Assembly (NCBI RefSeq): GCF_021646685.1
Contig: NZ_JAKJHW010000005.1
Coordinates: 1-64,000, forward strand
Reading direction: 5' to 3'
Length of the DNA stretch: 64,000 nucleotides
DNA from: Pseudalkalibacillus salsuginis
Lineage (GTDB): Bacteria; Bacillota; Bacilli; Bacillales; Fictibacillaceae
Shown here in pieces: positions 46,024-62,973 of this stretch. The notes beneath the pieces are model-generated. The model did no database searches. It was not told where the DNA came from and worked only from the letters and a program-made list of their open reading frames with translations. Position 1 is the first letter of the stretch, and each line of letters begins with the position of its first letter. The position numbers and the translations under genes were made by a program.

Positions 46024-46503
46024 GTGAATATACAAATCGTCACTGTAGGTAAGTTGAAAGAGAAGTATTTGAAACAAGGGATTTCAGAGTATGTAAAACG
46101 GATTGGCCCCTATGCCAAAATAGAAGTAATCGAGGTTTCTGATGAGAAGGCGCCAGAGCAACTAAGTGGGAGTGAGATGGAGCAGGTAAAGAATGCAGAA
46201 GGCTCACGTCTCCTTGCAAAAATCGGTCAAGATGTCCATGTCATAGCACTTGCGATTGAAGGGAAACAAAAGACATCTGAGGAGCTTGCCAGGAATTTAG
46301 ATCAGCTCGCTACTTATGGAAAATCAAAAATAGCCTTCGTGATCGGAGGTTCTTTAGGGTTGAGTGAAGCAGTCTTAAAACGATCGAATGAACAGCTATC
46401 CTTTTCCAAAATGACCTTCCCCCATCAACTCATGCGCTTGATTCTGGTGGAACAGATCTACAGAGCATTCAAAATCAATCGCGGTGAACCGTACCACAAA
46501 TAG
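46024..46503 (+). CDS. rlmH: 23S rRNA pseudouridine-1915 N3-methyltransferase RlmH
   Basis: A SPOUT methyltransferase that modifies pseudouridine 1915 on the assembled 70S ribosome. The 159-residue protein starts with GTG, has [15 protein letters not shown] and ends [11 protein letters not shown]. The 3' end is the attachment site used by SCC elements in staphylococci. Here it is intact and forms the left boundary of the island. Confidence 0.98.
46482..46496 (+). repeat. Left attachment repeat (attL) in rlmH
   Basis: CGGTGAACCGTACCA, identical to 62959-62973, with codon phase kept. See the right copy. Confidence 0.82.
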
Positions 46504-47255
46504 AGGCAAAAAAAGTTGAAGATAAGGTGGCATTTTCTCCTTTGAATCGAGAGTAGAGGAGGATTTTTCCTTTGTATTATCTGATTCAAGGTACAGTGTA
46601 TGGATAAGTGTAAATGACTTAGAAAGATTGACTTCAGAAAAATCAAACACAAGTTCAATTTTATCAACAGTTCGAGAACGACCATCGGACAGTTTGATGA
46701 TTATCTTATTTAGTAAAAAGAGTTGCTTTTTCTTCTCTCTCGAACACTGTGGGAATACTTGAACATACTTTTCTAATAAATGCCTAACCACGTCGGGTGG
46801 AATAACTTTCGAGTCTGATGAACTTAATTGAATACTGAGTTCATTTTTCTTTTGTTCTAAGTCACCTTTCGACTTAGCCAACTTCTGTAACCGTTCCTGT
46901 AATATGGAAACAAGGAAGAAATTTTGTTCAAATGCTTCCATATATTTTTCCTGTATAGTATTGGCTTCTTTAGCTCTGTTTCAATACTCTCTAACTGCTC
47001 TTTTAGTTTCACATTAGATTGAACTGTGTCTTTATTAATATTTTCTATGCTTTGACTTAAGCCAGCTGAATCGTTCAAGAACTCTGTTATACGATTAATG
47101 ACAGCATCTTCTGAATCGTAGGCTTTAATTGAATTCGCTTTACAGACAGATGATCCTTTGTTGTGAAATACACCACATACATAATAGCGATGTTTTCGTT
47201 TGCTTCCATAAGCATGGACACTTGGTGGATTCATCGCAGGTCTAACAGCTATCAC
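46504..47255 (-). pseudogene. Decayed large serine recombinase (C-terminal part)
   Basis: On the minus strand, residues such as KHRYYVCGVFHNKGSSVCKANSI match the zinc-ribbon domain of large serine recombinases (Ccr or phage integrase type), and a long coiled-coil-like stretch follows. The first cysteine pair has degraded. A one-base deletion near 46941-46965 (ELKK then, in the next frame, NTIQEKYMEAFEQNFF) splits the frame. The catalytic N-terminal resolvase domain is absent. The shifted frame runs through attL into the antisense of rlmH (to 46396). This is the likely remnant of the island's own integrase. Confidence 0.82.
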
Positions 47256-47562
47256 AACGGTCTTAATTTTAAGCTTATTCTCTGGAGTTCTTCCGGGATT
47301 ATAATAGAAGAAAGAGTACTTGGCTTTTAAAAAAATAGGTTCTTTTTGTGCATTTGGAGTATGTAAAATTCCTGGAATTCATAAGGAACATTCTTGTGTA
47401 CTTTTACGATACAAAGGGATTAAGGCTTGTCTAAAATGTTGTCACTGAGTTGATTTAGGTTTGAATCTACTGATTTATAGATTTATTTTCTAGTATAGGT
47501 AAACTATTCTCCATGAGACCACTATTCAGATCATATCGAGTACGTCTTGAAACTCATTTAGA
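47256..47562. other. Gene-free interval upstream of the recombinase remnant
   Basis: Past the zinc-ribbon part the minus strand soon loses any likeness to recombinase. Nothing else is recognised. Confidence 0.4.
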
Positions 47563-47605
47563 AGAAGACAACTAATCCTAATGGGGAGTTGTCTTCTTAT
47601 TTTTT
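47563..47605. terminator. Terminator-like hairpin
   Basis: Perfect 11-bp stem AGAAGACAACT (47563-47573) with AGTTGTCTTCT (47587-47597), then TATTTTTT. No gene is now left upstream on the plus strand to use it, which suggests a lost gene. Confidence 0.8.
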
Positions 47606-47720
47606 GTAACAGATAGGCAAAACCGTGTTAAATGTGTGCCAGTGCATCGTCCTGTTGAGTTTTATTAGATGTAGTCAGTCAACTGTTTCAGATTATTAAT
47701 ATTATTTTTTTGCATTTAAT

Positions 47721-47760
47721 TTTCGTTTCATTTTCGTTTTTATTTAATATTTATTGAAAA
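47721..47760 (-). promoter_or_regulatory. Candidate DeoR-type operator, first copy
   Basis: On the minus strand, AAATAAAAACGAAAATGAAA. Similar A-rich direct repeats occur at 53341-53370, 56711-56733 and 56861-56898, each before a transcription unit of the island. Confidence 0.4.
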
Positions 47761-47803
47761 TAAATTATTTTTATCGAAATGTTTTATTTATTATTATTTT
47801 ATG

Positions 47804-47831
47804 TTGACAAAATAATAATAATTGATAAAAT
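47804..47831 (+). promoter_or_regulatory. Promoter of the first catabolic unit
   Basis: TTGACA (47804-47809), a 16-base spacer and TAAAAT (47826-47831), in very AT-rich DNA. Confidence 0.65.
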
Positions 47832-47847
47832 TAAGAAAAGAAAGATA

Positions 47848-47862
47848 ATGAAAGCGTTTGCG
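47848..47862 (+). promoter_or_regulatory. cre-like site (CcpA)
   Basis: ATGAAAGCGTTTGCG fits the cre consensus WTGNAANCGNWNNCW except at the last base. It lies 17 bases past the -10, where bound CcpA would block transcription when preferred sugars are present. Confidence 0.6.
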
Positions 47863-47914
47863 ATTATGTTTAATTCAAGAAAATATTAAAACTATCAAAT
47901 AAGGAGGGAAATGT

Positions 47915-48751
47915 GTGCAAATTAAATTCGGATGTCATGGATCTACTTGGGAACTAGATTATGATAAGGAATGTGATTATCTAGACCGAATAATGAATAC
48001 CGTTAAGATTGCTGGCTTTAAAGGCATTGATGTGCAAGTAGCGCTGTTAGGAAGATATAAAAATCAACCTGAAAGACTTAAAGAGGAACTTGCTAAGAGA
48101 AAAATCGAGCTGGCTGCTTTAACTGTTCCGTTTACATGGGAAGGGGAAAATGAATCTGCTGAAGAAAAAGAACACGCAGATTATTACATAAATTTTTTGA
48201 AACACTTCTCTGGTGCTGTGATGAATGTGCCGTCCAGAGTAGGACCAAATAGAGATCATTTGTTAAAAAGGCAAAAAGAAATTATTAATTGTGTTAATTC
48301 CCTTGGAAAACGTGCATTTGAAAATGGTGTGGTCGCATCTTTCCATCCAGCATCACCCAAAACCTCTTATTTTAGAATAAAAGAAGATTACGATGTACTT
48401 TTTGAGGAAATAGACCGAAGATATGTTGGATACACACCAGATGCAGGTCATATTATGGCTGGCGGAATGAATCCTGTCGAGATTATAAGAGATAATTTAT
48501 CAATTATAAAACATGTTCATTTTAAAGATTGCTCAGTTACATTTAAATGGAGAAAAATGGGTACGGGTGATATCGATTTCCCGACTATTGTTGAAACACT
48601 TCAAAACTATAATTATAAGGGTTGGATCATGGTGGAAGAGGAAACAGATGAAGCTGCCCAAGAACCTGACAAAGTAATTCACGATGTGGGTGAATATGTT
48701 CAAAGTCATTTGGTACCGATTACAACAGGGGTAAGGAACAGTGCCAAATAA
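47915..48751 (+). CDS. Xylose-isomerase-like TIM-barrel enzyme
   Basis: A 278-residue protein of the sugar phosphate isomerase/epimerase superfamily (AP endonuclease 2 fold). Likely metal ligands lie in SFHPASPKTS, TPDAGHIMAGG, HVHFKDC and the C-terminal WIMVEEET. The superfamily includes isomerases, epimerases, dehydratases such as IolE, and some sugar-acid decarboxylases. The position ahead of a carboxylate importer, PdxA and DhaKL suggests an early step on a sugar acid, perhaps decarboxylation of a 3-oxo acid to a ketose. The exact reaction cannot be read from sequence. GTG start after AAGGAGGG. Confidence 0.8.
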   Translation: MQIKFGCHGSTWELDYDKECDYLDRIMNTVKIAGFKGIDVQVALLGRYKNQPERLKEELAKRKIELAALTVPFTWEGENESAEEKEHADYYINFLKHFSGAVMNVPSRVGPNRDHLLKRQKEIINCVNSLGKRAFENGVVASFHPASPKTSYFRIKEDYDVLFEEIDRRYVGYTPDAGHIMAGGMNPVEIIRDNLSIIKHVHFKDCSVTFKWRKMGTGDIDFPTIVETLQNYNYKGWIMVEEETDEAAQEPDKVIHDVGEYVQSHLVPITTGVRNSAK

Positions 48752-49063
48752 ATTGATTCCCTCCTTACTTATACCATAAATTTATTTTAAGGAATTCATT
48801 TATCTAATGCAGTTTTGGATAGAAATAGTGAATTGTATGGAGATAAGTTATTGAAAATGAAGTTAATGTTGCCATTGAAGTTCGAAGTAGAGTTAGTGAA
48901 GAATGTAGTTTAGTCGAAAAGATTGTGAGAAGTATCCAGAAATCAGTTTTAAGCAATTTGGAATTGCGTAATCTTAATTATAGTAAGAATTAGGAATAGG
49001 GCTTAATAGTAGATTATGATTACGTGAAAAAATATTTTATAAACTTTATAAAGGGGGATTAAG
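48752..49063. other. Interval with a possible gene fragment
   Basis: About 310 bases without a complete gene. From about 48852 to 48992 one plus frame is open and ends ELRNLNYSKN-stop, resembling the tail of a lost gene that I do not recognise. Nothing like a strong terminator is seen, so tctC may be cotranscribed. Confidence 0.35.
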
Positions 49064-50044
49064 ATGAGAGTAAAAATGAACATCAGTATTCTATTTCTTG
49101 GACTGGTTTTAATCTTGGCTGCATGCGGTGGAGGATCTGAGCAATCTGGAGGAGAGGCATCCACTAATTATCCAGAAAGAAAGATAGAAGTACTTGTAGG
49201 TCACGGAGCTGGTGGTGGTACTGACTTATTCGCAAGAGCAGTAGTAAAAGAATTAGAAGAAATCTTAGACGTTAACATTAACGTTGTAAACCAAGAAGGT
49301 GGAGCTGGAGTTATTGCTGCACAAAATGCTTTTAACGCACCTGCTGATGGTTATACCTTAGTAGGAGACGCGGCATTTCCTATTACAACTGCAGCTGGAA
49401 CTAATAAACATGGCTTAGATGACTTTGTTCCAATCGCTCGTTTCCAAAGTGATACTTATGGTTTATGGGTAAACCCTGCAAAATTTGATAGTATTGACGA
49501 TTTTATTCAAGCAGCGAAAGATAATCCTGGAAAAATCACTGTTGGTGGAACTGGATCTATGGGGATGGATGAGATAACAGTATTCCAACTTGGTCAAGTG
49601 GCAGGAGTTGAATTAAGCTTTGTTCCGATGGAAGGTTCAGGTGAAATGCACTCGGGTGTTATTGGAGGTCATTTAGATGCAATGGTAGACGAGTTTGGTC
49701 CAACAAAAGCATTGTATGAGGATGGTTCGATAAAACCACTAGTAGTGTTTGCTGAGGAAAGATTAGAACAATTTCCAGATCTGCCAACGACTGTGGAGAA
49801 GGGTTGGGATATAACAGATGGAAATGAGCGTGGTTTCTATATTAAAAAAGGGACAGATCCAGAGATTATTAAAATTCTAGAAGGTGCGATGAAAAAAGCT
49901 TATGACTCAGAAGAATATCAAAAATTGGAAGAAGAAAGCTATTTACATCTAAGAGAAGGTTGGTTAAATTCTAAAGAATTTACAACAAGAACAGAAGAAT
50001 TAATTGAAAAATATAAAGCTGTTATGGAAGAACTTCAAAAATAA
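49064..50044 (+). CDS. Tripartite tricarboxylate transporter substrate-binding lipoprotein (TctC)
   Basis: A 326-residue extracytoplasmic receptor. It has a lipoprotein signal with LILAACGGG (Cys about residue 21), then the Bug/TctC pattern: YPERKIEVLVGHGAGGGTDLFARA, GGAGVIAAQNAFNAPADGYTL and GTGSMGMDEITVFQL. The family binds carboxylates such as citrate, tartrate and sugar acids. It is followed by tctB and tctA; the three proteins form one importer. ATG at 49064 behind AAAGGGGGA. Confidence 0.93.
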   Translation: MRVKMNISILFLGLVLILAACGGGSEQSGGEASTNYPERKIEVLVGHGAGGGTDLFARAVVKELEEILDVNINVVNQEGGAGVIAAQNAFNAPADGYTLVGDAAFPITTAAGTNKHGLDDFVPIARFQSDTYGLWVNPAKFDSIDDFIQAAKDNPGKITVGGTGSMGMDEITVFQLGQVAGVELSFVPMEGSGEMHSGVIGGHLDAMVDEFGPTKALYEDGSIKPLVVFAEERLEQFPDLPTTVEKGWDITDGNERGFYIKKGTDPEIIKILEGAMKKAYDSEEYQKLEEESYLHLREGWLNSKEFTTRTEELIEKYKAVMEELQK

Positions 50045-50109
50045 ATATTGAAAAGTAGGAGGATCATTCAATCTCTCCTACTTTCTTCTTAAAAGTAGGA
50101 GGGATAAGA

Positions 50110-50628
50110 GTGAGCAATGTAATGAAAGACTATATATTTTATAGCATTGTCATTCTATTTGCTTTGTTTTTTTTAGTTATGACTCCGCAAATTAAAATAA
50201 CAAATGGAACTTTTATTATTGGTCCTAGGCATTGGCCTTATATATTACTAACATTAATGTTGATTTTGGCCATATTTGGAATTGTTAAAAGTTACATTTT
50301 AGCTAAAAAATCAAAATCAATAGAATCTAAGGATCATGAAGATAAAATTGAACCAGAAAGAACGTTTTTTAAATTATCAATACCTATGATTTCCTTAGTA
50401 TTGGTGATTTTATATGTGCTTTTACTTAATGCTATTGGGTTTATTATTTCTACACTCCTATTTTTATATGGAATTTCACTTCTACTTGGACAAAAGAAAC
50501 AACTATATTCTATTATCTTCGCAGTTCTAACTACAGTAGTATTTATCGGATTGTTTTCTGTCTTATTATCCATTCCTTTACCACGAGGACTAGGTATATT
50601 TAGACAGTTAAGCTTGCTATTCTATTAG
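50110..50628 (+). CDS. Tripartite tricarboxylate transporter small membrane subunit (TctB)
   Basis: A 172-residue protein with four hydrophobic segments (about 8-26, 42-62, 95-120 and 130-155), a charged loop between the second and third, and a closing PRGLGIF motif, as usual for TctB. GTG start after AGGAGG. Its sequence is poorly conserved in the family, so position between tctC and tctA is the main support. Confidence 0.88.
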   Translation: MSNVMKDYIFYSIVILFALFFLVMTPQIKITNGTFIIGPRHWPYILLTLMLILAIFGIVKSYILAKKSKSIESKDHEDKIEPERTFFKLSIPMISLVLVILYVLLLNAIGFIISTLLFLYGISLLLGQKKQLYSIIFAVLTTVVFIGLFSVLLSIPLPRGLGIFRQLSLLFY

Positions 50629-50648
50629 AGATTAGGAGGGTGGATTCC

Positions 50649-52160
50649 ATGTTTGATTATTTAATTACTGGCATACTGAATATAGTCACTGATCCAATGA
50701 ATATAACAATGCTACTTATTGCGATTGTAATTGGATACATTGGAGGTGCTATTCCTGGGGTAAGTGGAACGATGTTAGTGGTCATTATGTTACCAGTAAC
50801 ATATGCACTTGAACCAACAGCTGCTTTTATATTACTTACAGGTATATACGCAATTACAGCATTTTCTGGAGCAATTAGTGCAATATTACTTAGAACACCG
50901 GGCACACCTGAAGCGGTTGTAACAACCTTTGATGGATATCCAATGGCGCAGCAAGGAAATCCGGGGCGTGCACTAGGGATTGCAATCTTTTGTTCAGTCA
51001 CAGGAGGAGTTATTGGAACATTATGCTTAATTACAATCACTCCTGCTCTTGCAAACGTGGCCTTATCCTTTTCCTCTCCTGAATACTTTGCTTTAACGGT
51101 TTTGGGTCTAACTGTAGTTGCTTCCCTTAGCGGAAAAGAATTAGCTAAGGGGTTGATTGGGGTATTATTTGGATTAATGATATCAGTAATTGGTATGGAT
51201 CCTTTAACTGGAACTTTACGTTATACATTCGATGCAACAGTCTTAACTTCAGGAATTGATTTAATACCAGTTATTATTGGACTGTTTGCATTATCAGAAT
51301 TTCTTAAGAAAACAAAGGACAGTCATGTTGTACAAGAAACTATTTCAAATGTAAAGACAAAAATCTTTGAAATAGAGATTTTCAAAAAAATAAAAGGAAC
51401 AATGGCAAGATCAAGCATTATCGGAGTATTTATTGGTATATTACCTGGAGTAGGCGCTACCACAGCTTCTATGCTTAGTTATAGTGAAGCAGTAAGGTGG
51501 GCAAAAGATGAGGAGAAGGCAAGTTATGGGAAAGGGAATCCAAAGGGGATTGCCGCATCGGAAACTTCGAATAATGCTGCAGCTATGGGAACTTTAGTAC
51601 CATTACTTTCATTAGGTATTCCTGGTGGCGCTACAGCTGCTGTCTTGTTAGGAGCTTTTATTTTACATGGCATGCAGCCTGGTCCAATGCTATTTAAAAC
51701 AGAACCAGAACTAATGTATACGATTTTTGCAGGTTTGTTATTGGCAAATATTGCGATGTTAGTAGTCTCTAAACCTTTTATCAAACTATTTCAAAGAATA
51801 GTGAATGTTCCTTATCATGTTTTGGGGCCACTAGTTGTAGTATTTTGTGTAATCGGAACCTATACAGTAAGGAATAACTATTTTGATATTTTAATAATGA
51901 TCTTATTTGGAATTATAGGATATATCCTTGAAAAATATAAATTTCCATTAGCGACAATTATATTAGGGGTTGTATTAGGCCCACTTACAGAAAGTGAATT
52001 TCGCCGCTCAATCCAAATGGCAAATGGCGACTTTTCAATCTTTTTTACCCGTCCTATTAGTTTAATATTAATCATTATTTCTGTATTAATGTTATTTTAT
52101 CCAATGATTAACGACTATATTAAAAAGCGAAAATTACAAAAAATAAATATTTCAGCGTAG
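50649..52160 (+). CDS. Tripartite tricarboxylate transporter large membrane subunit (TctA)
   Basis: A 503-residue permease with about 11-12 membrane segments. Family motifs are IGYIGGAIPGVSGTMLVV, PGTPEAVVTTFDGYPMAQQG, GVFIGILPGVGATTASMLSY and ASETSNNAAAMGTLVPLLSLGIPGG. It uses the ion gradient to move the ligand delivered by TctC. ATG at 50649, nine bases past AGGAGGG; the frame opens at 50640 inside that site. Confidence 0.95.
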   Translation: MFDYLITGILNIVTDPMNITMLLIAIVIGYIGGAIPGVSGTMLVVIMLPVTYALEPTAAFILLTGIYAITAFSGAISAILLRTPGTPEAVVTTFDGYPMAQQGNPGRALGIAIFCSVTGGVIGTLCLITITPALANVALSFSSPEYFALTVLGLTVVASLSGKELAKGLIGVLFGLMISVIGMDPLTGTLRYTFDATVLTSGIDLIPVIIGLFALSEFLKKTKDSHVVQETISNVKTKIFEIEIFKKIKGTMARSSIIGVFIGILPGVGATTASMLSYSEAVRWAKDEEKASYGKGNPKGIAASETSNNAAAMGTLVPLLSLGIPGGATAAVLLGAFILHGMQPGPMLFKTEPELMYTIFAGLLLANIAMLVVSKPFIKLFQRIVNVPYHVLGPLVVVFCVIGTYTVRNNYFDILIMILFGIIGYILEKYKFPLATIILGVVLGPLTESEFRRSIQMANGDFSIFFTRPISLILIIISVLMLFYPMINDYIKKRKLQKINISA

Positions 52161-52181
52161 TAGATTGAAGGAGGAATTATT

Positions 52182-53180
52182 GTGAGTAAACCTACAATTG
52201 GATTGTTATATGGTGATGCAGCAGGTGTTGGACCAGAGATCGTGGCAAAAGCTTTATCAAACAAAGAAATATTAGATTCAGCTACTTGGATCTTAATTGG
52301 TGATGAAAGAGTTTTTAAACGCGGTGCAAATACAGTAGGAAAGGAATTCAACTATCAAAAAGTGGAGAATATTGACGATGTAAAGCCAGAAGATTCTTCT
52401 TTATGGCTAATAGATACAAAAAGTACTAATCCTGATGAAATTGAAATGGGTGTACTTTTAGTTGAATCAGGAAAGGCAGCTGGTGATAACCTTATGTTTG
52501 CATTGAATCTTGCAAAAGAAAAGAAACTTGATGGTCTATCGTATGCTCCGATGAATAAAAGTGCTCTATTTAAAGGAGGTTACGAATTTAAGGATGATAT
52601 TCATTTAGTAGCTTCAGTTTTTGGTCTTGAAGCCGGTTTTAGTGAAGTAAATGTAATGAATGATGTTTGGTTTACACGTGTTACTTCCCACATTCCTTTG
52701 AAGGAAGTTGCAGAAAATATTACAAAACAAAGTGTTCTAGATAGTATTTATTTTACTAATAAAATAGTATCCAAAGCGGGGATTACTCCTAAAATAGCTA
52801 TTGCAGGACTAAACCCACATGCTGGGGATGATGGGTTATTGGGAGATGAAGAAAATGAAGTTATATCTCCAGCTATTGAAGAGGCTAAAAAGAATGGCGT
52901 TGATGCTTTCGGACCATTTCCTGCTGATACGATATTCTTGAGATTGGACAAAGAAGACTATAATTGTTTATTGGCTATGTACCATGACCAAGCTCAAATC
53001 GGTATGAAAACAATGGGATTCAATAAAGGCGTTACAATTAGTGGAGGACTTCCAATCGTTATAACAACTGCTGCTCATGGTACGGCTTTTGATATAGCTG
53101 GAAAAGGCATAGCAGATCCAGGTGCATTTGAACAAGCGTTAAAGCTTGGTGTGCAATTAATTAATAATGGATATAAATAA
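52182..53180 (+). CDS. PdxA-like dehydrogenase (4-hydroxythreonine-4-phosphate dehydrogenase family)
   Basis: A 332-residue NAD-dependent oxidative decarboxylase family member. It shows GDAAGVGPEIVAKAL, PMNKSAL, GLNPHAGDDGLLGDEE and the metal ligands of MYHDQAQIG, and ends THGTAFDI-like (AAHGTAFDIAGKGIADP). PdxA2 enzymes act on 4-phospho-threonate or 4-phospho-erythronate in C4 sugar-acid pathways. No pyridoxine genes are near, so a catabolic role is likely. No DUF1537 kinase, the usual partner of PdxA2, is present. GTG start after GGAGG. It ends the first unit. Confidence 0.9.
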   Translation: MSKPTIGLLYGDAAGVGPEIVAKALSNKEILDSATWILIGDERVFKRGANTVGKEFNYQKVENIDDVKPEDSSLWLIDTKSTNPDEIEMGVLLVESGKAAGDNLMFALNLAKEKKLDGLSYAPMNKSALFKGGYEFKDDIHLVASVFGLEAGFSEVNVMNDVWFTRVTSHIPLKEVAENITKQSVLDSIYFTNKIVSKAGITPKIAIAGLNPHAGDDGLLGDEENEVISPAIEEAKKNGVDAFGPFPADTIFLRLDKEDYNCLLAMYHDQAQIGMKTMGFNKGVTISGGLPIVITTAAHGTAFDIAGKGIADPGAFEQALKLGVQLINNGYK

Positions 53181-53199
53181 TATTTTTTAATAATGGGGG

Positions 53200-53241
53200 A
53201 GTGTCTAGTCAGTATTATAGTGACTATTAGGCACTTTTTTT
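53200..53241 (+). terminator. Terminator after the pdxA-like gene
   Basis: Stem AGTGTCTAGTCA with TGACTATTAGGCACT (53200-53235), then TTTTTT. Confidence 0.82.
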
Positions 53242-53340
53242 CTATTAAATTGGAAAAATGATATTTTTATAGAGACTAATGATGTTAATAGAAATTATGA
53301 ATTGTAAATTGACAGAAAATATATAAAAGATTAAAATAAA

Positions 53341-53370: not shown

Positions 53371-53407
53371 TATCAAAAATTCGAGTGGGTATAAGGAGGA
53401 TTGGCAA

Positions 53408-54424
53408 GTGAAGAAGATTATAAACAATCCCGGTCATGTTGTTCAAGAAGCAATTGAAGGATATATGTGCGCTTTTAAAGACTCAATAACAAAAGTTGAA
53501 AATGTAAACGGAATTATACGTAAAGACCTTAAAGAAAAAGTTGCGATCGTATCAGGTGGCGGAAGTGGACATGAGCCATTATTTTTGGGGTTTGTAGGTG
53601 AGGGTCTTGCTGATGGGGTGGCCATTGGAAATGTATTTGCAGCACCAACACCCAATACTGTTCAGCATGTAGCAAAAGCAGTGAATCGAGGAAAAGGTGT
53701 TTTATTCGTATATGGGAACTATGCGGGTGATGTTCTTAATTTTGATATGGCATCCGAGTTGTTAGAGTTTGATGATATCCAAACTAAAACCGTTTTAGTG
53801 ACAGATGATGTGGCTTCTGCTCCAGCGGAACGAAAAGGTGACCGTAGAGGGATTGCAGGAGATGTATTTGTTCTCAAGATTGCAGGCGCAGCTTCTGAGA
53901 AAGGTTGGTCATTAGATGAAGTAACACGTGTAACTCAAAAGGCGGCAGATCAAACATTTTCCATTGGTGTAGCCACAGCACCAGGTACAATTCCTGGAGA
54001 AACAGAACCTCCATTTGTGTTAGGTGATGATGAGATTGAATTTGGAATGGGGATCCATGGAGAACCAGGACTGAAACGTACGAAATTAATGAGTGCGGAT
54101 GAACTTACAGATGAGCTAGCAGAAAAATTATTAGAAGAAAGCAATATACAACCAGGTGATGAAGTGGCTGTTTATGTAAACGGTTTAGGTTCTACTACAT
54201 TATTAGAGTTGCTTATTGTTAATCGTAGAGTTGCCCAATTATTAAACAAAAAAAAGATTGATATTTATGATATGGACGTAAACAGTTACTGTACAACGCA
54301 AGAAATGGGTGGGTTTTCAATTACGTTATTAAAATTAGATGTCGAGTTAAAAGAGTTATATGATGCTCCTGCAAGCGCACCCTATTATAAAAAAACACAA
54401 AAGATCAGAGAGGGTGTTAAATAA
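53408..54424 (+). CDS. dhaK: Dihydroxyacetone-type kinase subunit DhaK
   Basis: Substrate-binding subunit of a two-part ketose kinase. The 338-residue protein has VSGGGSGHEPLFLGFVG, NYAGDVLNFDMA, DDVAS and GIHGEPGL; the histidine of the last forms the covalent bond to the keto group (about residue 219). Homologues phosphorylate dihydroxyacetone or, in tetritol pathways, erythrulose. The neighbouring ketotetrose isomerases favour erythrulose. GTG start after AAGGAGG. It overlaps dhaL by one base. Confidence 0.93.
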   Translation: MKKIINNPGHVVQEAIEGYMCAFKDSITKVENVNGIIRKDLKEKVAIVSGGGSGHEPLFLGFVGEGLADGVAIGNVFAAPTPNTVQHVAKAVNRGKGVLFVYGNYAGDVLNFDMASELLEFDDIQTKTVLVTDDVASAPAERKGDRRGIAGDVFVLKIAGAASEKGWSLDEVTRVTQKAADQTFSIGVATAPGTIPGETEPPFVLGDDEIEFGMGIHGEPGLKRTKLMSADELTDELAEKLLEESNIQPGDEVAVYVNGLGSTTLLELLIVNRRVAQLLNKKKIDIYDMDVNSYCTTQEMGGFSITLLKLDVELKELYDAPASAPYYKKTQKIREGVK

Positions 54425-55086
54425 TGTCAATTGAAACTGCAAACAGTATTACAGCGAGTCAAGTAAAAGATATGTTTTTATATGTAGGTGAAAAGGTAAT
54501 TGAAAGTAAACCTCTCCTAACAAAAATTGATAGCGCTATCGGTGACGGAGATCATGGTATTGGTATGTCTGTTGGATTTACGAAGGCAGCAGAAAATCTG
54601 AAGGCAAATGAATTCACAACGGTAAATGATGTTTTTAAAACAGTGGGTATGTCAATGATTTCATCAATGGGTGGAGCATCAGGGGTAATATTTGGGACAA
54701 TGTTTGTTGGAGGGATAAAAGGTTTAGAGCCAAAGACTTCTTTAGATTTACAATTATTGGCTAGTATTTACGATAAGGCTCTAGAAGCAATAAAGCTCCG
54801 TGGTAAGGCGGATTTGGGAGACAAAACAATGATTGACGCATTTCAACCTGTGGTTGAAACTTTGAAAGTTTGTGCTAATAAAAATGAGAGTTTAGTAGAA
54901 GGGCTTAAACAAGCAGAAATTGCAGCTCTCCAAGGCGTTGAAAATACAAAGGATTATGTTGCAAAGTTTGGAAGGGCAAAATCATTAGGCGAAAGAGCGA
55001 TTGGGCATCAGGATGCTGGTGCTACAACTGTTTCGATCATCATTAAATCAATGAAGGAATGGTTAGAAGGACAAGGCAATGAGTAA
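54424..55086 (+). CDS. dhaL: Dihydroxyacetone-type kinase subunit DhaL
   Basis: Nucleotide-binding subunit of the kinase. The 220-residue all-helical protein has the metal and ADP-binding IGDGDHGIGM near residue 40, MGGASGVIFGTMF, GDKTMIDA and a closing HQDAGATTVSIII. No DhaM phosphotransferase subunit is encoded in the island, so the pair may use ATP rather than PTS phosphate. It overlaps the TPI-like gene by eight bases. Confidence 0.93.
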   Translation: MSIETANSITASQVKDMFLYVGEKVIESKPLLTKIDSAIGDGDHGIGMSVGFTKAAENLKANEFTTVNDVFKTVGMSMISSMGGASGVIFGTMFVGGIKGLEPKTSLDLQLLASIYDKALEAIKLRGKADLGDKTMIDAFQPVVETLKVCANKNESLVEGLKQAEIAALQGVENTKDYVAKFGRAKSLGERAIGHQDAGATTVSIIIKSMKEWLEGQGNE

Positions 55087-55852
55087 GATTTGGGTTGGAA
55101 CTAACTGGAAAATGACAAAAACAATTGGAGAAGGAATTTCATACACAAAGGAACTTAAACAAGTAGCAAATGAATTAACTTCGAATATTGAGTTATTTAT
55201 TATTCCTTCCTTTACAGCTTTAGTTGATATAAAGAAAGAAGTTGCGGAAACAAGGATAAAACTTGGTGCGCAAAATATGCATTGGGAAGATAAAGGAGCA
55301 TATACAGGTGAAATTTCACCAAGAATGTTGAATGAAATAGGGATAGACCTGGTTGAATTAGGTCACTCAGAGCGAAGACAATATTACAATGAAAACGATT
55401 CAGATATTAATAAAAAAGTAGTTTCTGCATTAAAGCATGGGATGAAGCCGCTGGTTTGTATTGGTGAAGAGATTGAACAAAAAAATAACTTCATTTCTTT
55501 TGAAATACTTGCTGCACAGTTAAAAGTATGCCTAAAAGGGTTATCTGAAGAAGATGCTAAACAGGTTCTAGTCGCTTATGAACCTGTTTGGGCAATTGGT
55601 GAAAAAGGAATTCCTGCTGATTCTAATTATGTGGGGGAGGTTCATACCTTTTTACGTCACACATTAGTTGAAATGTTCCTGGAAAGTGGGTATGAAATAC
55701 CATTATTATACGGCGGAAGTGTTAATTTAGATAATTTCTTAAAATATATTAATCACCAAGATGTAAATGGTCTTTTTGTCGGAAGAACTGCTTGGGATTT
55801 GGAAACCTTTACAGTTCTGTTACATGAGCTTGAGAAGCATCTTTATAGTTGA
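55079..55852 (+). CDS. Triosephosphate-isomerase-like protein, probable ketotetrose-phosphate isomerase
   Basis: A 257-residue TIM barrel with the catalytic residues of triosephosphate isomerase: TNWKM, GHSERRQ and YEPVWAIG. Two segments depart from glycolytic TPI: the phosphate-gripping loop reads GEKGIPAD rather than GTGKTAT, and the last motif is LFVGRTAWDLETF rather than a VGGASL form. Comparable second TPI copies next to RpiB and DhaK-like genes convert L-erythrulose 1-phosphate to D-erythrulose 4-phosphate (LerI, and EryH/TpiA2 in Brucella). That role is my preferred reading, not proven. It overlaps dhaL. Confidence 0.85.
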   Translation: MSKIWVGTNWKMTKTIGEGISYTKELKQVANELTSNIELFIIPSFTALVDIKKEVAETRIKLGAQNMHWEDKGAYTGEISPRMLNEIGIDLVELGHSERRQYYNENDSDINKKVVSALKHGMKPLVCIGEEIEQKNNFISFEILAAQLKVCLKGLSEEDAKQVLVAYEPVWAIGEKGIPADSNYVGEVHTFLRHTLVEMFLESGYEIPLLYGGSVNLDNFLKYINHQDVNGLFVGRTAWDLETFTVLLHELEKHLYS

Positions 55853-55858
55853 TAATAA

Positions 55859-55889
55859 AACAAAGATACTCCTAAGGAGCATCCTTGTT
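55859..55889. terminator. Bidirectional terminator between the TPI-like gene and deoR
   Basis: Stem AACAAAGAT (55859-55867) with ATCCTTGTT (55881-55889), with TCTTTT to the right and AAAA to the left, between two converging genes. Confidence 0.75.
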
Positions 55890-55910
55890 CTTTTGTTAGT
55901 ATAGCGGGTC

Positions 55911-56681
55911 TTAAAATACTTTTATATTATGATTAGACAATTCTTTAAGAAGTGAATCATCAAATTTTTTGTCAGTAATAATTGTGTCAATTTTTTCGCA
56001 TGTAGCAAAAGTAGCTATTGAGCTTGTTCCTATTTTTGTATAATCTACCATTCCAACAACTTTATTAGCCTTTTCAACCATTATCCTTTTTAACTCTACT
56101 TCATAGACATTAAAGTCTGTTAGTCCTTCTTCAATAGAGAATCCACTTGCTGATGTAAACATGGTGTCTATATTGATTTTATTTAAAATACTTGTTCCTA
56201 GTGATCCTTCAAGTGCCATCGACCCCATTCTTGCCATCCCACCTATTAAGATGACATTAATTCCAGGATTCTCTTTCAACTCGATAGCAGTTGATATTCC
56301 GTTTGTTACAACGGTGATATGTAAGTTGGATTCTCTTAATAACCTTGCCAATTCGAGGGCGGTTGTACTCGCATCTAGTAATATACAATCTTTTTGCTCA
56401 ATAAGCTGGACAGCTTTTTGGGCAATAATTATTTTTGAATCACGGTTTTTCTTTTCACGTTCAGAAAAACTTTTCTTTGATGATGAAAAATCTTCATTTA
56501 AAACAGCTCCACCATGCGTCCGGGTTAATAGGCCTTCTTCTTCTAGAACGTTTAAATCCGTTCTTAATGTAGCTTCGGAAACATTAACACCTTTTGCTAA
56601 ATCTTTAACCGTAACTCGTTTTTTTTCTTCGAGTAAATTTAAAATTAATTGTCTTCTTTCGCTAGCAAATAATTTATCCAT
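55911..56681 (-). CDS. DeoR-family transcriptional regulator
   Basis: A 256-residue repressor type. The N-terminal helix-turn-helix reads KDLAKGVNVSEATLRTDLNVLEEEGLLTRTHGGAV, the DeoR signature; the C-terminal sugar-phosphate sensor has LLDASTTALELARLL and TSASGFSIEEGLTD. Such regulators usually release DNA when they bind a phosphorylated sugar, here perhaps a ketotetrose phosphate. I start it at 56681 (MDKLFASERR) after AGAGGG; a frame open to 56741 crosses the candidate operator. Confidence 0.93.
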   Translation of the reverse strand: MDKLFASERRQLILNLLEEKKRVTVKDLAKGVNVSEATLRTDLNVLEEEGLLTRTHGGAVLNEDFSSSKKSFSEREKKNRDSKIIIAQKAVQLIEQKDCILLDASTTALELARLLRESNLHITVVTNGISTAIELKENPGINVILIGGMARMGSMALEGSLGTSILNKINIDTMFTSASGFSIEEGLTDFNVYEVELKRIMVEKANKVVGMVDYTKIGTSSIATFATCEKIDTIITDKKFDDSLLKELSNHNIKVF

Positions 56682-56710
56682 TTTAATCCCTCTTTTATTA
56701 GCCAATTGAA

Positions 56711-56733
56711 TGTAAATGAAAATAAAAATAATT
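56711..56733 (+). promoter_or_regulatory. Candidate DeoR-type operator, third copy
   Basis: TGTAAATGAAAATAAAAATA, 30 bases upstream of the deoR start. It fits autoregulation. Confidence 0.45.
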
Positions 56734-56860
56734 AAAAACAAGGTAAGTTATATATCCTTATTTATAATTATAATTCAATTTTAATCAATAGATCTCGAGA
56801 TAGCAAGCGTATACTATATTTAATTTTATAGAATGTATTTATATTCACCTTAAAAACAAA

Positions 56861-56898
56861 AGTAAATGAAAATAAATATTGAAAAATAAAAATAAATG
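56861..56898 (+). promoter_or_regulatory. Candidate DeoR-type operator, fourth copy
   Basis: AGTAAATGAAAATAAATATT followed by a second GAAAAATAAAAATAAATG, before rpiB. It shares GTAAATGAAAATAAA with the copy at 56711. Confidence 0.45.
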
Positions 56899-56968
56899 TA
56901 ATAGAATGATGGTAGTTAAAAAATATAATACAAAGCTTTTTTGCAAACAAATGAAAGGGGATGCGAAA

Positions 56969-57445
56969 ATGAAAATTGGAATTGGATGCGATCACAATGC
57001 ATTTGATTTAAAAGAGGTATTAAAAAGATTTATTGAGAAGTCAGGTAACGAAGTCGAGGATTATGGTTGCTATTCAAAAAGTGCAATTGATTACCCTGAT
57101 GTAGCGTTGAAAGTAGCTGAAGGAGTAAGTAATAAGGTTGTAGAAAGAGGGATTTTACTTTGTGGTACAGGAATTGGTATGTGTATAGTTGCCAACAAGT
57201 ATCCAGGTATCAGAGCAGCTCAAACCCATGATGTTTATTCCGCTGAAAGAGCACAATTAAGTAATGATGCTCAAATTATTACGATAGGCTCCCAAGTTGT
57301 TGGGGAAGAACTTGCAAAAAAGATTGTTTCAGCTTATTTAAATTCCCATTGGGCTGGTGGTTCTCAACGTAAAGTAGATAGAATTGTTGGAATAGAAAAA
57401 GAGTTTTATACGGGTAAGGAAGATTCCTCTAGCACTTGCAGTTAA
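56969..57445 (+). CDS. rpiB: RpiB-type sugar-phosphate isomerase
   Basis: A 158-residue protein of the RpiB/LacAB family: KIGIGCDHNAFDLKEVL, DYPDVALKVAEGV and ERGILLCGTGIGMCIVANK, whose cysteine is catalytic. Members act on ribose 5-phosphate or, in tetritol pathways, convert D-erythrulose 4-phosphate to D-erythrose 4-phosphate (DerI/EryI). The gene context favours the latter. Start ATG at 56969 after AAAGGGGATG; a longer frame from 56879 overlaps the operator region. Confidence 0.93.
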   Translation: MKIGIGCDHNAFDLKEVLKRFIEKSGNEVEDYGCYSKSAIDYPDVALKVAEGVSNKVVERGILLCGTGIGMCIVANKYPGIRAAQTHDVYSAERAQLSNDAQIITIGSQVVGEELAKKIVSAYLNSHWAGGSQRKVDRIVGIEKEFYTGKEDSSSTCS

Positions 57446-57508
57446 GTTTTTTATAATAACGAAACTTATAACATTACTTATAAGTAGTTTAAAAGGGAGG
57501 ATGCTCCA

Positions 57509-58450
57509 ATGAATCAATTAATATATGATTTTTTACATGTTACAGAATCAGCAGCTCTTGCATCATTGCCATGGGTTGGAACTGGAAATAAATTTGAAGC
57601 TGATAGAGCCGCAACAAACTCCATGAGAAACCTATTGAATAAGATACAAATGGATGGTGTCGTCGTAATTGGTGAAGGTGAAATTGATGAATCTCCCATG
57701 CTCTACATTGGTGAAAGAGTAGGAGCAGGGACAGGTCTAAAAGTTGATTTAGCAGTAGATCCAATTGACGGAACCACGTCTACTTCGAAGGGGCAAAATG
57801 ATGCTATTACAGTAATTGCCGCTGCACCAAAAGGAACATTACTTCACGCACCAGATATGTATATGGAAAAAATAGCGACTGGACCAAAGGCAGCGGGCAA
57901 AATTGATATAAATGCAACAATTGAAGACAATTTGTATGCGGTTGCAAAAGCAAGTGAAAAGCAACTAAATGAGTTGACAGTCATTATCCAGGATCGAGAA
58001 AGACATCAGAAGTGGATAGAAATCATTCGAAGCATGGGTGCAAAGACATACTTGTTTGAAGATGGTGATGTTATTCCTGCGATATCTACATGTATTGATT
58101 CATTGAATATTGATTTGTTTGTTGGTATTGGAGGTGCTCCCGAAGGTGTTTTAGCAGCAGTTGGGATCAAAAGCTTAGGTGGAGATATGCAAGCAAGGCT
58201 TTTACCTAGTACAGAAGAGGAATATGACAGATGTAAAAGTATGGGGATTGAGGATCCGAATCAAGCATTAAGACTTGAACAATTAGTAGGTACGGATAAT
58301 TGTGCTTTTATAGCAACCGGTATTACAAGTAATATGTTGCTAAAAGGGATTCGAAGTGATCAAAAAAAATACATTACTCATTCAATGGTGATAAGTGGAT
58401 TAGATAAAAATTTACGGTGTACGGAAACGGTACATCTTATAAATAGTTAA
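57509..58450 (+). CDS. glpX: Class II fructose-1,6-bisphosphatase (GlpX)
   Basis: A 313-residue metal-dependent phosphatase with GEGEIDESPMLYIGE, DPIDGTTSTSKG and GIGGAPEGVLAA. GlpX enzymes remove phosphate from fructose 1,6-bisphosphate, and some from sedoheptulose 1,7-bisphosphate. With an erythrose 4-phosphate source, aldolase plus this enzyme could make sedoheptulose 7-phosphate. It lies between rpiB and the transketolase gene on one strand. Confidence 0.94.
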   Translation: MNQLIYDFLHVTESAALASLPWVGTGNKFEADRAATNSMRNLLNKIQMDGVVVIGEGEIDESPMLYIGERVGAGTGLKVDLAVDPIDGTTSTSKGQNDAITVIAAAPKGTLLHAPDMYMEKIATGPKAAGKIDINATIEDNLYAVAKASEKQLNELTVIIQDRERHQKWIEIIRSMGAKTYLFEDGDVIPAISTCIDSLNIDLFVGIGGAPEGVLAAVGIKSLGGDMQARLLPSTEEEYDRCKSMGIEDPNQALRLEQLVGTDNCAFIATGITSNMLLKGIRSDQKKYITHSMVISGLDKNLRCTETVHLINS

Positions 58451-58533
58451 GTTTTATTTATCTAGGTTGAGTAGGAAAATTTAAATTTTCTAAAAGAAAG
58501 AGATAATATATGCTTTTGCAAGGAGGAATCAAT

Positions 58534-60540
58534 ATGATTAGAGAAAAGTTGGATATTGATCAGTTATCTATTCAAACAATTAGAACGCTCTCTATTGATG
58601 CAATTGAAAATGTAGGATCTGGTCATCCTGGTATGCCAATGGGTGCAGCGCCGATGGCGTATACGCTTTGGACAAAGTTTATGAATTATAATCCGAGCAA
58701 TCCGAATTGGTTTAATCGTGATCGCTTTGTTTTATCAGCTGGTCATGGTTCGATGTTATTGTATAGCTTACTTCATTTAACTGGATATGACGTTTCATTA
58801 GATGATCTGAAAAATTTCCGTCAATGGGGAAGTAAAACTCCAGGGCATCCTGAGTTTGGTCATACACCAGGTATCGATGCAACAACAGGTCCGTTAGGGC
58901 AAGGTATTGCAATGGCAGTAGGAATGGCTATGGCTGAGAGACACTTAGCTTCAACTTATAACCGAAAAAGCTTAAATGTGATTGATCACTTTACATACAG
59001 CATTTGTGGAGACGGAGATTTAATGGAAGGTGTGTCAGCAGAAGCTGCTTCATTAGCTGGTCATCTTAAACTAGGAAAATTAATTGTTTTATATGACTCA
59101 AACGATATTTCACTTGATGGTGATCTTAATTTGTCGTTTAGTGAAAATGTTGAAGACCGTTTTAAAGCTTATAACTGGCAAGTCATTCGAGTTGAAGATG
59201 GCAATGATTTAGAGGCGATCGCAAGAGCAATTACAGAGGCAAAAGCAAACACAGAACAGCCGACGTTGATTGAAGTGAAAACAGTGATTGGATACGGGTC
59301 TCCAAACAAAGCTGGAAGATCTACTTCACACGGTTCTCCTCTTGGAAAAGAAGAAATTAAACTAGTTAAAGAACATTATAAATGGAATTATAGTGAAAAT
59401 TTTTATGTGCCAGAAGAAGTGAAATTATATTTTGCTGAAATAAAGAAATCCTCGGAATTAAAAGAACAGACTTGGAATGAACTATTTTCAATATACGAAA
59501 AATTATATCCAAGTCTTGCGAAGGAATTAAAAATAGCCATTTATGGAGAGCTTCCAGATGGGTGGGATGCTGCTATTCCTTCTTATAAGGTTGGAGAAGA
59601 TAAGTTAGCGACTCGTGCGTCAAGTGGAGAAGTTTTAAATGCAATTTCAAAACATACACCTCAACTCTTGGGGGGATCAGCAGATCTAGCATCATCAAAT
59701 AAAACTCTATTAAAAGGAGAGGAAAACTTTAGTAGTGCAAGTTATAGCGGCCGTAATATATGGTTTGGGGTTCGTGAATTTGGAATGGGTGCAGCCGTAA
59801 ATGGAATGGCATTGCATGGTGGCGTAAAAGTCTTTGGTGCCACATTCTTTGTTTTCTCAGACTACTTACGTCCCGCTATCCGCCTATCAGCTTTAATGAA
59901 GCTACCTGTTACATATGTCTTTACACATGATAGTATTGCGGTCGGTGAGGATGGACCAACACATGAACCGATAGAACAATTAGCATCGTTACGCTGCATG
60001 CCGGGCTTATCTACAATTAGACCAGCTGATGGGAATGAGACAGCTGCTGCTTGGAAGCTTGCAATAGAGAGTACCAATGAACCGACAGTTCTTGTTTTAA
60101 CTAGACAAGATTTACCGACCCTTGTTGATTCTGAAAAGGCATATGAAGGCGTGAAGAAAGGTGCATATGTTATTTCGGAAGCAAATGGAGAAAGAAGCGG
60201 CCTTCTATTAGCTTCTGGATCTGAAGTGTCTCTAGCGGTTGAAGCCCAAAAGGCACTGGAGAAAGAAGGTATTTATGTATCAGTAATTAGTATGCCGAGT
60301 TGGGATCGTTTTGAAAAACAACCGAAACCATATCAAGAAAGTGTGGTTCCAAAACATGTTAGAGCACGTCTAGGAATTGAAATGGGTGCATCCCTTGGTT
60401 GGAGCAAATATATTGGCGATCATGGAGCTGTATTAACCATAGACCAATTTGGAGCATCAGCACCTGGTGAAAAACTTATCGATGAATATGGCTTTACAGT
60501 AGTGAATGTCATTTCTCAATTTAAAAGCCTTCTTAAATAA
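58534..60540 (+). CDS. tkt: Transketolase
   Basis: A thiamine-diphosphate enzyme moving two-carbon units between sugar phosphates. The 668-residue protein has [20 protein letters not shown], the cofactor motif [29 protein letters not shown] and [19 protein letters not shown]. Start ATG at 58534 after AAGGAGGA. A second, island-borne copy would fit catabolism of erythrose 4-phosphate. A terminator follows. Confidence 0.96.
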
Positions 60541-60604
60541 TGTCTAACGTATTGTGAGTAAGTGAATCAAAAAGTGAAAAAACCAGCAAGATAACTCTTT
60601 TTTT

Positions 60605-60636
60605 GTAGCAGAATTACCCAATAGGAATTCTGCTAC
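60605..60636 (+). terminator. Terminator after tkt
   Basis: Perfect 11-bp stem GTAGCAGAATT with AATTCTGCTAC (60605-60636). T runs occur on both sides (TTTTTTT before, TGTTTT after). Confidence 0.82.
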
Positions 60637-60683
60637 TGTTTTAATCAACATAACTCTCATAAGGGAAAAGGCTAGGTGACAAC

Positions 60684-61316
60684 ATGTTTCATACAATTGA
60701 AGAAGCATTACAAGATTTGAAAAACGGGAAAGTTATTATTATTTGTGATGATGAAGATCGTGAGAACGAAGGTGATATTATGTCATTGGCAGAATACTCA
60801 ACACCTGAAGTAATCAATTTCATGGCTACTCATGGACGAGGGTTAATCTGTACACCTATATCAAAACAACTAGCTGAAAATTTTGAGCTAGACCTCATGG
60901 TTAGACAGGATAACAATACAGATGTGCATCGTACCGCTTTTACAATTAGTATTGATTATAAGACAACAACAACAGGTATTAGTTCTCTAGAACGTTCTGA
61001 TACGATCCGAGCATTGTTACGAGAGGATGTAACCCCATCTGATTTTCGCCGTCCTGGCCATGTCTTTCCATTAATTGCGAAAGAAGGAGGAGTTCTAAGT
61101 CGACCCGGTCATACAGAAGCAGCCGTTGATTTAGCAAGATTGGCTGGTGAAAAGCCAGCTGGTGTGATTTGTGAAATTATGAAAGAAGACGGAATGATGG
61201 CACGTGTACCAGATTTAATAAAGATATCAAATAAATTTCAATTAAAGATGATTACGATAAAAGACTTAGTTACATATCGTCGAAAACAACAAAGCGCAAC
61301 AATGATTGAGAAGTGA
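60684..61316 (+). CDS. ribB: 3,4-dihydroxy-2-butanone-4-phosphate synthase (RibB-like)
   Basis: A 210-residue stand-alone RibB. The family enzyme turns ribulose 5-phosphate into 3,4-dihydroxy-2-butanone 4-phosphate and formate for riboflavin. [27 protein letters not shown] and [10 protein letters not shown] are kept; the usual TTGISAxDR reads [10 protein letters not shown], an Asp-to-Glu change. No GTP cyclohydrolase II domain and no FMN riboswitch are seen, and no other rib genes are near. It may supply riboflavin precursor, or act on a related sugar phosphate in this pathway. Confidence 0.92.
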
Positions 61317-62000
61317 ATTTTGTTAATCTTTTGGTTGAAGTTTTTAGAGAAAGGGAATCCATTTCTATTTCGCGAATATCTGCGAACCTCCTCATTCGTA
61401 CCTCGCTACAGGTCTTCTCAACAAGTTTTTCGGAGGTAACATATTTTTCATATTTGTGTAGGGACGAGGTTTTCAAAACATTATATTTTCAGAAAAAGGA
61501 TAAAGTTCAACTGAAGGAAACAGGAAGTGATGGGTTTATTGTCCTTGGCGGTATGGTCCCTCTATTGTACAGACCTATGTTATTGAGGTAGTCGGACGGT
61601 GTTCAAGGTATATCGCGATTTGGTCAGGTGTGTATCTAGTAGCAGAAAAAAATATTCCAGAAACTGAAGCAAGATGTTGACGTTTTTAATGACGAATTCT
61701 GCAAGGGAATGAATGAGGGGAAAAATTCACAGTACTTTATTAGTTTCTGAAGGTGTGGGAAAAGCAGAACGAAAAGAGTTAGTAAAGTATTCAGCAGAAA
61801 ACAAATTTAGAGACAAAAGTAACGATTGGTGGACATCTCCAACGCGGGGTTCCCCAAGTGTATACGACCGAATGGAAGCCGAATGGCTGCAAAAGCTGTG
61901 GACTTATAACTAGAAGGGAAGCAGATATTTTGCTTGGCTTTAGTTTGCTCGTTTGGATCCTACATGAATGAATGCCTTAGGAAAAGTTGAATTGATCACA
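61317..62000 (+). pseudogene. Decayed region with unrecognised gene remnants
   Basis: About 700 bases between ribB and the transaldolase gene, broken into short frames. A frame at 61713-61913 ends with a well-formed tail (WWTSPTRGSPSVYDRMEAEW), and 61590-61680 in another frame reads GVYLVAEKNIPETEARC. They look like pieces of one or two lost genes. I cannot assign a family. Confidence 0.4.
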
Positions 62001-62042
62001 ACATCTATCGATTAAAAAAATAAAAATTGGAGGAGTAAGAAG

Positions 62043-62708
62043 ATGAAATTTTTTGTTGATACTGCAAATCTTGAAGATATTCAAAAAGCATATAAAATTG
62101 GTGTATTATCAGGTGTCACTACAAATCCTTCCTTAGTAGCTAAAGAAAGAATAAAATTTGAAAATCGAATCGCGGAAATTTGCCAATTAGTTCCAGATAT
62201 TGAGTCTGTTTCTGCAGAAGTAACTCCTAATGCTGTAATGGCTGATGAAATGATTGCAGAAGCTGAGGAATTGATTAAAATTAACAATGGTGATAAGAAA
62301 ATAACAATTAAGCTTCCAATGACTTTACAAGGATTAGAAGCTTGTAGATATCTCACGAAAAAGGGTGTTAAAACTAATGTAACCCTTATCTTTACGGTAA
62401 ATCAAGCTCTTTTAGCTGCACGAGCTGGGGCAACCTATGTTTCCCCATTTTTAGGTAGATTAGATGATATTTCTGAAGATGGAGTTCAATTAGTCACGAA
62501 AATTGCTGAGTTATTCCACTTGCAAAAGATCGATTCACAAATTATTGCGGCTTCCGTTCGTCATCCTGATCACGTTACACGTGTAGCATTAGCTGGTGCT
62601 AATATTGCGACTATTCCATTCAATGTAATTGAACAAATTTCAAGGCATCCATTAACAGATCAAGGGATTGATAAATTTGCAGCAGACTGGAAAAAGGTAT
62701 CACAATAA
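62043..62708 (+). CDS. tal: Transaldolase (small, TalC/FSA type)
   Basis: A 221-residue protein of the short transaldolase class: MKFFVDTANLEDIQKAYKIG, GVTTNPSLVAKE, the Schiff-base lysine in ITIKLPMT and VSPFLGRLDDI. It moves a dihydroxyacetone unit between sugar phosphates; some relatives are fructose-6-phosphate aldolases. TTGGAGGAG precedes the ATG. With tkt it completes a route from erythrose 4-phosphate to central metabolism. Confidence 0.94.
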   Translation: MKFFVDTANLEDIQKAYKIGVLSGVTTNPSLVAKERIKFENRIAEICQLVPDIESVSAEVTPNAVMADEMIAEAEELIKINNGDKKITIKLPMTLQGLEACRYLTKKGVKTNVTLIFTVNQALLAARAGATYVSPFLGRLDDISEDGVQLVTKIAELFHLQKIDSQIIAASVRHPDHVTRVALAGANIATIPFNVIEQISRHPLTDQGIDKFAADWKKVSQ

Positions 62709-62902
62709 TAAATGAGTTTTAAGTGGCTTAATGCTATTTTGGAGTTAAGGTAAACACCACTAAATCATACTATCTGCCATCACCAATCAAGCCATTTAGA
62801 GTACGGAAACATCGTAATGAAACAAGAGAAGTGGCAGAAATCCTCTAAATAAGCATAAAAAAAGTATGTATAAGTAAAACGAATTAATGTAGATCAAACT
62901 AT

Positions 62903-62942
62903 AAAAAGGCACCGGTAAGATCAGTTTACCAATGCCTTTTTT
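62903..62942 (+). terminator. Terminator at the right end of the island
   Basis: Stem AAAAGGCA-GGTAA with TTACC-TGCCTTTT (62903-62940), then TTTTG. It closes the tal unit 17 bases before the right attachment repeat. Confidence 0.82.
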
Positions 62943-62958
62943 GCCTCTTAAATAACCA

Positions 62959-62973
62959 CGGTGAACCGTACCA
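62959..62973 (+). repeat. Right attachment repeat (attR), rlmH-like end
   Basis: CGGTGAACCGTACCA, identical to 46482-46496 in rlmH. The next bases keep the same frame: GGTGAACCGTACCATAGGTAA reads GEPYHR-stop, matching GEPYHK-stop of RlmH. It marks the right edge of the integrated island. Bases 62974-63246 hold no gene that I recognise. Confidence 0.82.

Follow-up and report, generated by a model that had tools for sequence, protein, structure and literature searches.

Islands carrying large serine recombinases are found in many Bacillota, mostly downstream of rlmH, and the final ~12 bp of that gene have served as the match by which their second ends were located; tandem composites are on record, and empty sites have been reported for three of the islands (PMC10061031; this paper and the two cited next are represented here by parts of their text). 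Hosts of rlmH islands resembling the staphylococcal cassette chromosome (SCC) include Bacillus cereus and Geobacillus vulcani, and GA is the central dinucleotide needed by CcrAB (PMC10581047); an enterococcal cassette chromosome has also been described (PMC6222049). Here we analyze a window of 64,000 nt from Pseudalkalibacillus salsuginis (positions 1 to 64,000 of contig NZ_JAKJHW010000005.1, assembly GCF_021646685.1; the window is this whole stretch). We conclude that positions 46487-62963, 16477 bp in all, are very probably an integrated cassette-chromosome element that was placed at rlmH by a CcrB-like recombinase and is now recombinase-less with both ends in place. An earlier note on this DNA had proposed that such an island would widen the known range of the insertion site, which it does not, since rlmH cassettes have already been published for Bacillus, Geobacillus, Paenibacillus, and others (available parts of PMC10061031 and PMC10581047). 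Elements of this kind are known in spore-formers, and the present one adds a new and clear case whose cargo is unusual: a near-complete catabolic operon carried as a cassette at a site best known for methicillin resistance.

The target gene, rlmH (46024..46503, + strand; SPOUT_MTase, E 3.7e-60), is complete and ends GEPYHK-stop. The 15-bp core CGGTGAACCGTACCA lies on the + strand within its tail at 46482-46496 (attL, presumed crossover dinucleotide GA at 46486-46487) and again at 62959-62973 (attR, presumed crossover GA at 62963-62964), giving two copies in the window, compared to none in 100 dinucleotide shuffles. As the earlier note had read it, the right copy encodes an rlmH C-terminus (GEPYHR-stop); the second end matches the rlmH tail as in the Bacillota islands, and the insertion sits at the rlmH 3′ end as in SCC. 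Immediately inside the cores, AGAGGCAAAAAA occurs at 46502..46513 on the + strand, the left end being identical in 25 of 25 related named loci, and in inverted orientation, on the – strand, at 62937..62948. The two inverted copies are equidistant from the core GA, and a same-offset run that long occurred in 1 of 200000 random stretch pairs drawn from the island. Read outward from the core GA, the left end starts AACCGTACCACAAATAGAGGCAAAAAA and the reverse-complemented right end is CACCGTGGTTATTTAAGAGGCAAAAAA. Direct repeats and inverted end repeats thus surround a central GA, as in SCC, and by their sequence the two element ends together form a single predicted serine-recombinase att dyad. The island-like character of the region, including its AT-richness, was borne out as well, with G+C at 0.338-0.386 in nine 2-kb bins from 46001 and 0.384-0.441 in the 23 bins before them.

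The same ends recur elsewhere. The left end, TAGAGGCA, is invariant across 25 close named loci (≥65% recombinase identity), and the right end stands 16 nt from GA in Bacillus niameyensis (L135), in Ureibacillus manganicus (L142), and in an array on contig C13 of the host genome, and 15 nt from GA in a congener (L081). Contig C13 also has a third exact copy of CGGTGAACCGTACCA (C13:478607). With at most one mismatch allowed, the core pattern was found at 25 places in eight of eight genomes of the genus, and the reversed control gave none; some of the single-mismatch places are without a visible cassette end. Arms at 16 nt from a GA core are a sharp sequence test for cassette ends that fits many genera.

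Beside the left repeat, where the earlier note had seen a serine recombinase remnant, what is left of a CcrB-like large serine recombinase is its final ~266 codons (46447..47225, – strand). They lie in two frames and correspond to residues 396-571 (46447-46968) and 306-394 (46971-47225) of the intact congeneric protein P0001 (571 amino acids, genome G001), to which they are 74% and 72% identical, respectively. One of these open reading frames (ORFs) matches Zn_ribbon_recom (E 3.3e-5) with 24.6 bits, slightly below the curated cut-off of 25.3. Residues 1-300 of P0001, which contain the invariant Y10, R12, V13, and S14 (the last being what we take to be the catalytic serine), had no match in the island at E 1 or better, and no other relative of P0001 was found in the host genome at E 1e-60. 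The reading frame of the remnant extends into the rlmH tail, and the 3′ end of the intact congeneric gene likewise lies inside rlmH. The conclusion that the element is immobile stands insofar as a broken recombinase leaves it no autonomous mobility, but "not self-mobile" fits better because both att ends look intact.

P0001 consists of Resolvase, Recombinase, and zinc ribbon domains, and the NCBIfam models that fit it best are CcrB (398 bits), CcrC (338 bits, cut-off 900), XisF (161 bits), and CcrA (141 bits, cut-off 700), all of them under the cut-offs. A CcrA/CcrB or CcrC gene in the sense of SCC is therefore lacking here, where there is only a remnant whose intact relative falls under all three Ccr cut-offs. 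The CcrB model was nevertheless matched by 14 of 14 aligned members of the recombinase clade at E 1e-30 or better; its cut-off was passed in 9 of 398 genomes of the class, and none of 14 control genomes gave a match. In a tree of 59 chosen rows, the clade (support 100) grouped with true CcrB and two other clades that are frequent at rlmH, although this was a quick tree with six flagged long branches and an unsure order of clades. The Paenibacillus pinistramenti element (VAWG01000004), named in the available part of PMC10061031, falls in a neighboring clade (L161).

Relatives of the recombinase at E 1e-90 or better were present in 51 of 397 genomes drawn from the order, and an rlmH match lay within the locus for 27 of the 31 loci tested. 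A separate scan supplied 79 named loci (from the best 80 of 508). Among the close ones (≥65% identity, from many Bacillales genera), the recombinase 3′ end was inside the rlmH tail in 25 of 27; among the more distant ones, 25 of 52 ended ≤400 nt from an rlmH end and 27 did not. The sets of loci behind these counts overlap (L083 and L126 are on equally long contigs) and are therefore not independent. A Ccr-related recombinase adjoining rlmH, as in the Bacillota islands, is thus present as a remnant in the window, and 25 of the 27 close named loci have it whole. Related elements at this site carry different cargo. G001 has DUF1643, a SIR2 protein, a TmtA-like protein, and a type II restriction enzyme and methyltransferase. 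The cargo of G006 (L019, 3′ of rlmH) is a type I restriction system, beyond which, 8.1 kb from rlmH, stands a second left end of the TAGAGGCA class, another apparent tandem array. Four loci of a distant recombinase clade (L151, L153, L157, and L165) contain rlmH a second time at full length, 4.2-4.8 kb away from the first copy, perhaps a copy of the target borne by the element. At L051 (7571-10894, genome G014), two large serine recombinases of 506 and 577 amino acids stand in tandem, in a CcrAB-like arrangement; rlmH was absent from the 4.7-kb locus tested.

With SCC and SCCmec, the element in the window shares the rlmH target, direct and inverted end repeats, GA at the dyad center, and a CcrB-related recombinase, and the G001 relative adds DUF1643, presumably an SCC gene. 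It differs in having a single recombinase under the CcrB cut-off, placed at the element edge with its 3′ end in rlmH, and in having no ccr complex, as no helicase or other gene of that complex was among the Pfam matches of the scanned island ORFs. The Enterococcus cassette chromosome, in the part of PMC6222049 available, is similar in its rlmH target, att repeats with dyad symmetry, and variable cargo; it carries a ccrAB pair, in contrast to the one broken CcrB-like gene here. With the Bacillota rlmH islands (available part of PMC10061031), the locus has in common the position downstream of rlmH, the Ccr-related recombinase, the second end recognized by its match to the rlmH tail, and, probably, a tandem composite structure, but it differs in its broken recombinase, its catabolic cargo, and the lack of a recognized polymerase-SSB or helicase gene among the Pfam matches of the island. 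In the literature searched, largely without subscription journals, none of the matches listed named a published report of this catabolic cargo or of this recombinase clade; one of the papers listed dealt with Macrococcus cassettes, and, going by the titles listed alongside it, none dealt with the clade.

The cargo proved to be accessory, as the earlier note had maintained. A cargo marker gene was matched in only 1 of 34 genomes of the host's family, its own, and was unmatched in the other 33, and on this ground we rejected a cluster native to the genus or conserved throughout it. Across the order, the marker was present in 13 of 397 genomes, the host's included; in nine of the other 12 it lies on a different contig from rlmH and in three (G352, G335, and G323) it is at least 295 kb off by contig coordinates. 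G352, which belongs to another family of the order, lacks RibB but otherwise shares these genes and their order, with proteins 76-92% identical; its cluster lies at 0.62 Mb, and rlmH is on the same contig at 4.28 Mb. The homologous block here, 47756-62692, stays inside the element ends without reaching them, and no att core was found in the 36 kb examined around the G352 copy, both of which would suit a cluster that entered between pre-existing cassette ends, by homologous recombination or on another mobile element, and never traveled with the recombinase. We regard this explanation as unlikely, because the block takes up nearly all the room from the recombinase remnant to the right end, and the two ends of the element are of one class. 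A prophage, or the remnant of one, using a large serine integrase at rlmH is very improbable: phage integrases are indeed relatives of the recombinase, but those among the matches listed (15 of 1157 records) are all 30-33% identical, the three used in the tree fell outside the recombinase clade, and no phage structural families were among the Pfam matches of the island genes. Nothing was found to favor a last alternative, in which the repeat arose by chance next to an unrelated, native catabolic operon of this lineage; the shuffles, the att dyad at both ends, and the 33 family genomes without the marker make it scarcely credible.

For the integrated cassette at rlmH, we infer the following history. 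The enzyme responsible would have been a large serine recombinase of the CcrB-like type, whose gene lay at the left end of the element and read at its 3′ end into rlmH. By recombining the rlmH tail with a circular att site of the layout GCCTC, 16 nt, central GA, 16 nt, GAGGC, it would have left attL and attR with their 15-bp common core. The recombinase would later have lost its catalytic half, so that the element could no longer move itself, and both ends were kept; the element would now stand to the left of a second cassette, or at least of its end, in what is probably a tandem composite. A passenger that lacks a recombinase and yet has both its ends is a natural test of mobilization in trans. 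Several observations weigh against this account. The right end was not found for 23 of the 25 close loci in the available sequence (≤~11.7 kb from rlmH), nor for the intact G001 relative within 39.8 kb; the CcrB score of P0001 is far under the cut-off of 900; and excision was not observed. In addition, the closest genome, G004, has an uninterrupted rlmH that runs into sequence starting here only at ~C17:68.8 kb on the window's contig, which leaves a further 5.8 kb beyond the island unexplained by the element alone; the flank of this uninterrupted rlmH is not directly joined to the window's right flank.

A second cassette at the site would help explain the G004 junction. Just right of attR, the window contains TAAATGAGGTTTTT (62978..62991, + strand), which we take to be the left end of a second class of cassette. 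Among 130 distinct contexts downstream of rlmH, a sample that is enriched for recombinase loci and counts the window's own, 40 had an end of the TAGAGGCA type and six had exactly TAAATGAGGTTTTT (14 bases). The same sequence also lies 3′ of attR in Ureibacillus manganicus, and an inverted form lies 5′ of a core in L078. Because the sequence right of attR looks like the end of a second class, the rlmH site here is probably a tandem composite. The segment from 62974 to 68.8 kb contains a FecB/FecCD-type iron transporter, a methyltransferase, and a MarR regulator, and in G007 the sequence ~1 kb past rlmH corresponds to C17 from 75.2 kb onward. The predicted empty site would have rlmH joined straight to TAGGTAAATGAGGTTTTT. 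We considered whether the second cassette has its right end, in decayed form, near C17:72833, but the signal is too weak for a claim.

Three att cores also stand in a row away from rlmH, at C13:473.8-478.6 kb of the same genome (L022 3819, 6329, and 8609). They enclose YaaC-like ORFs and a segment with MarR and aldo/keto-reductase genes (the latter two named by eye), and the array ends in a further 205-bp remnant of this recombinase end, 85% identical. A conserved secondary chromosomal site was suspected at first, because G004 and G007 have left flanks resembling this one, but we rejected it, as the G004 similarity spans just 76 bp and the G007 piece had no match; more probably another element ends here. 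In G004, contig C133 (L020, 6.9 kb) has a partial rlmH tail and a second core around what by eye resembles a sucrose/fructose phosphotransferase system and kinase operon, and it looks like a second metabolic cassette. We tentatively suggest that the Bacillales rlmH tail may be a shared dock for several cassette families with differing ends (TAGAGGCAAAAA, TAAATGAGGTTTTT, TAAGGGTAAAA, TAACGGCAA, and TAAGCACA) around one GA core, families that may stack, leave core arrays at a distance from rlmH, and have as passengers entire catabolic operons that bring no recombinase of their own and could be moved in trans by an end-matched one.

The cargo, probably a sugar-acid operon, begins on the + strand with an IolE-like xylose-isomerase-type TIM barrel (47915..48751; AP_endonuc_2, E 9.2e-23; IolE model 90.5 bits, cut-off 290) and a decayed second TIM-barrel gene (48705..48960; tblastn pieces, best E 2.5e-11), which is complete (312 amino acids) in the G352 cluster. 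Pfam matches identify TctC, TctB, and TctA of a tripartite tricarboxylate-type (TTT) transporter (49064..52160), followed by a PdxA2-like dehydrogenase (52182..53180; PdxA, E 4.9e-85) whose PDB relatives include D-threonate 4-phosphate dehydrogenase. Profile matches then give DhaK and DhaL-type kinase subunits (53408..55086) and a triosephosphate-isomerase-type isomerase (55079..55852). A DeoR-family regulator (55911..56741; Pfam) is on the – strand. The remaining genes, again on the + strand, encode an RpiB-type isomerase (56969..57445, its start set by the domain, the longest ORF starting at 56879; LacAB_rpiB, E 5.7e-50; DerI model 143.5 bits, cut-off 240), a GlpX-type fructose-bisphosphatase (57509..58450) and a transketolase (58510..60540), both by Pfam match, and a transaldolase/fructose-6-phosphate aldolase family enzyme (62043..62708; Pfam and NCBIfam). 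Between the last two lies a decayed gene (61531..61913, + strand), perhaps a phosphofructokinase; one piece gave weak matches (PFK, E 0.043; PDB phosphofructokinase, E 0.022) and the other gave none, and we dropped this identification. Two genes of the cluster are thus decayed or doubtful in the window's copy.

Apionate and erythritol catabolism via erythrulose phosphate employs a DhaK-type kinase and TIM-/RpiB-type isomerases beside a TIM-barrel enzyme. The cargo resembles these pathways in the same enzyme types but differs in its TTT transporter, its PdxA2-like enzyme, its own transketolase, aldolase, and GlpX, and an RpiB-type protein under the DerI cut-off. We compared the clusters of eight of the 12 other genomes with the marker. 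DhaK, DhaL, RpiB, and a TIM barrel form a recurring set, and a TIM-type isomerase was present in five of the eight; because these genes recur, and given the pathways just mentioned, the set suggests a four-carbon ketose ending as erythrose 4-phosphate. In a pathway that we consider possible, if somewhat doubtful, a putative sugar acid would be imported and converted to a four-carbon ketose, which the DhaKL kinase and the TIM-/RpiB-type isomerases would turn into erythrose 4-phosphate, feeding transketolase, aldolase, and GlpX. The literature searched on the pathway held nothing, among the matches listed, that we recognized as the cargo gene set. A RibB-type DHBP synthase (60684..61316, + strand; Pfam), absent from the related G352 cluster, stands alone within the catabolic cluster.

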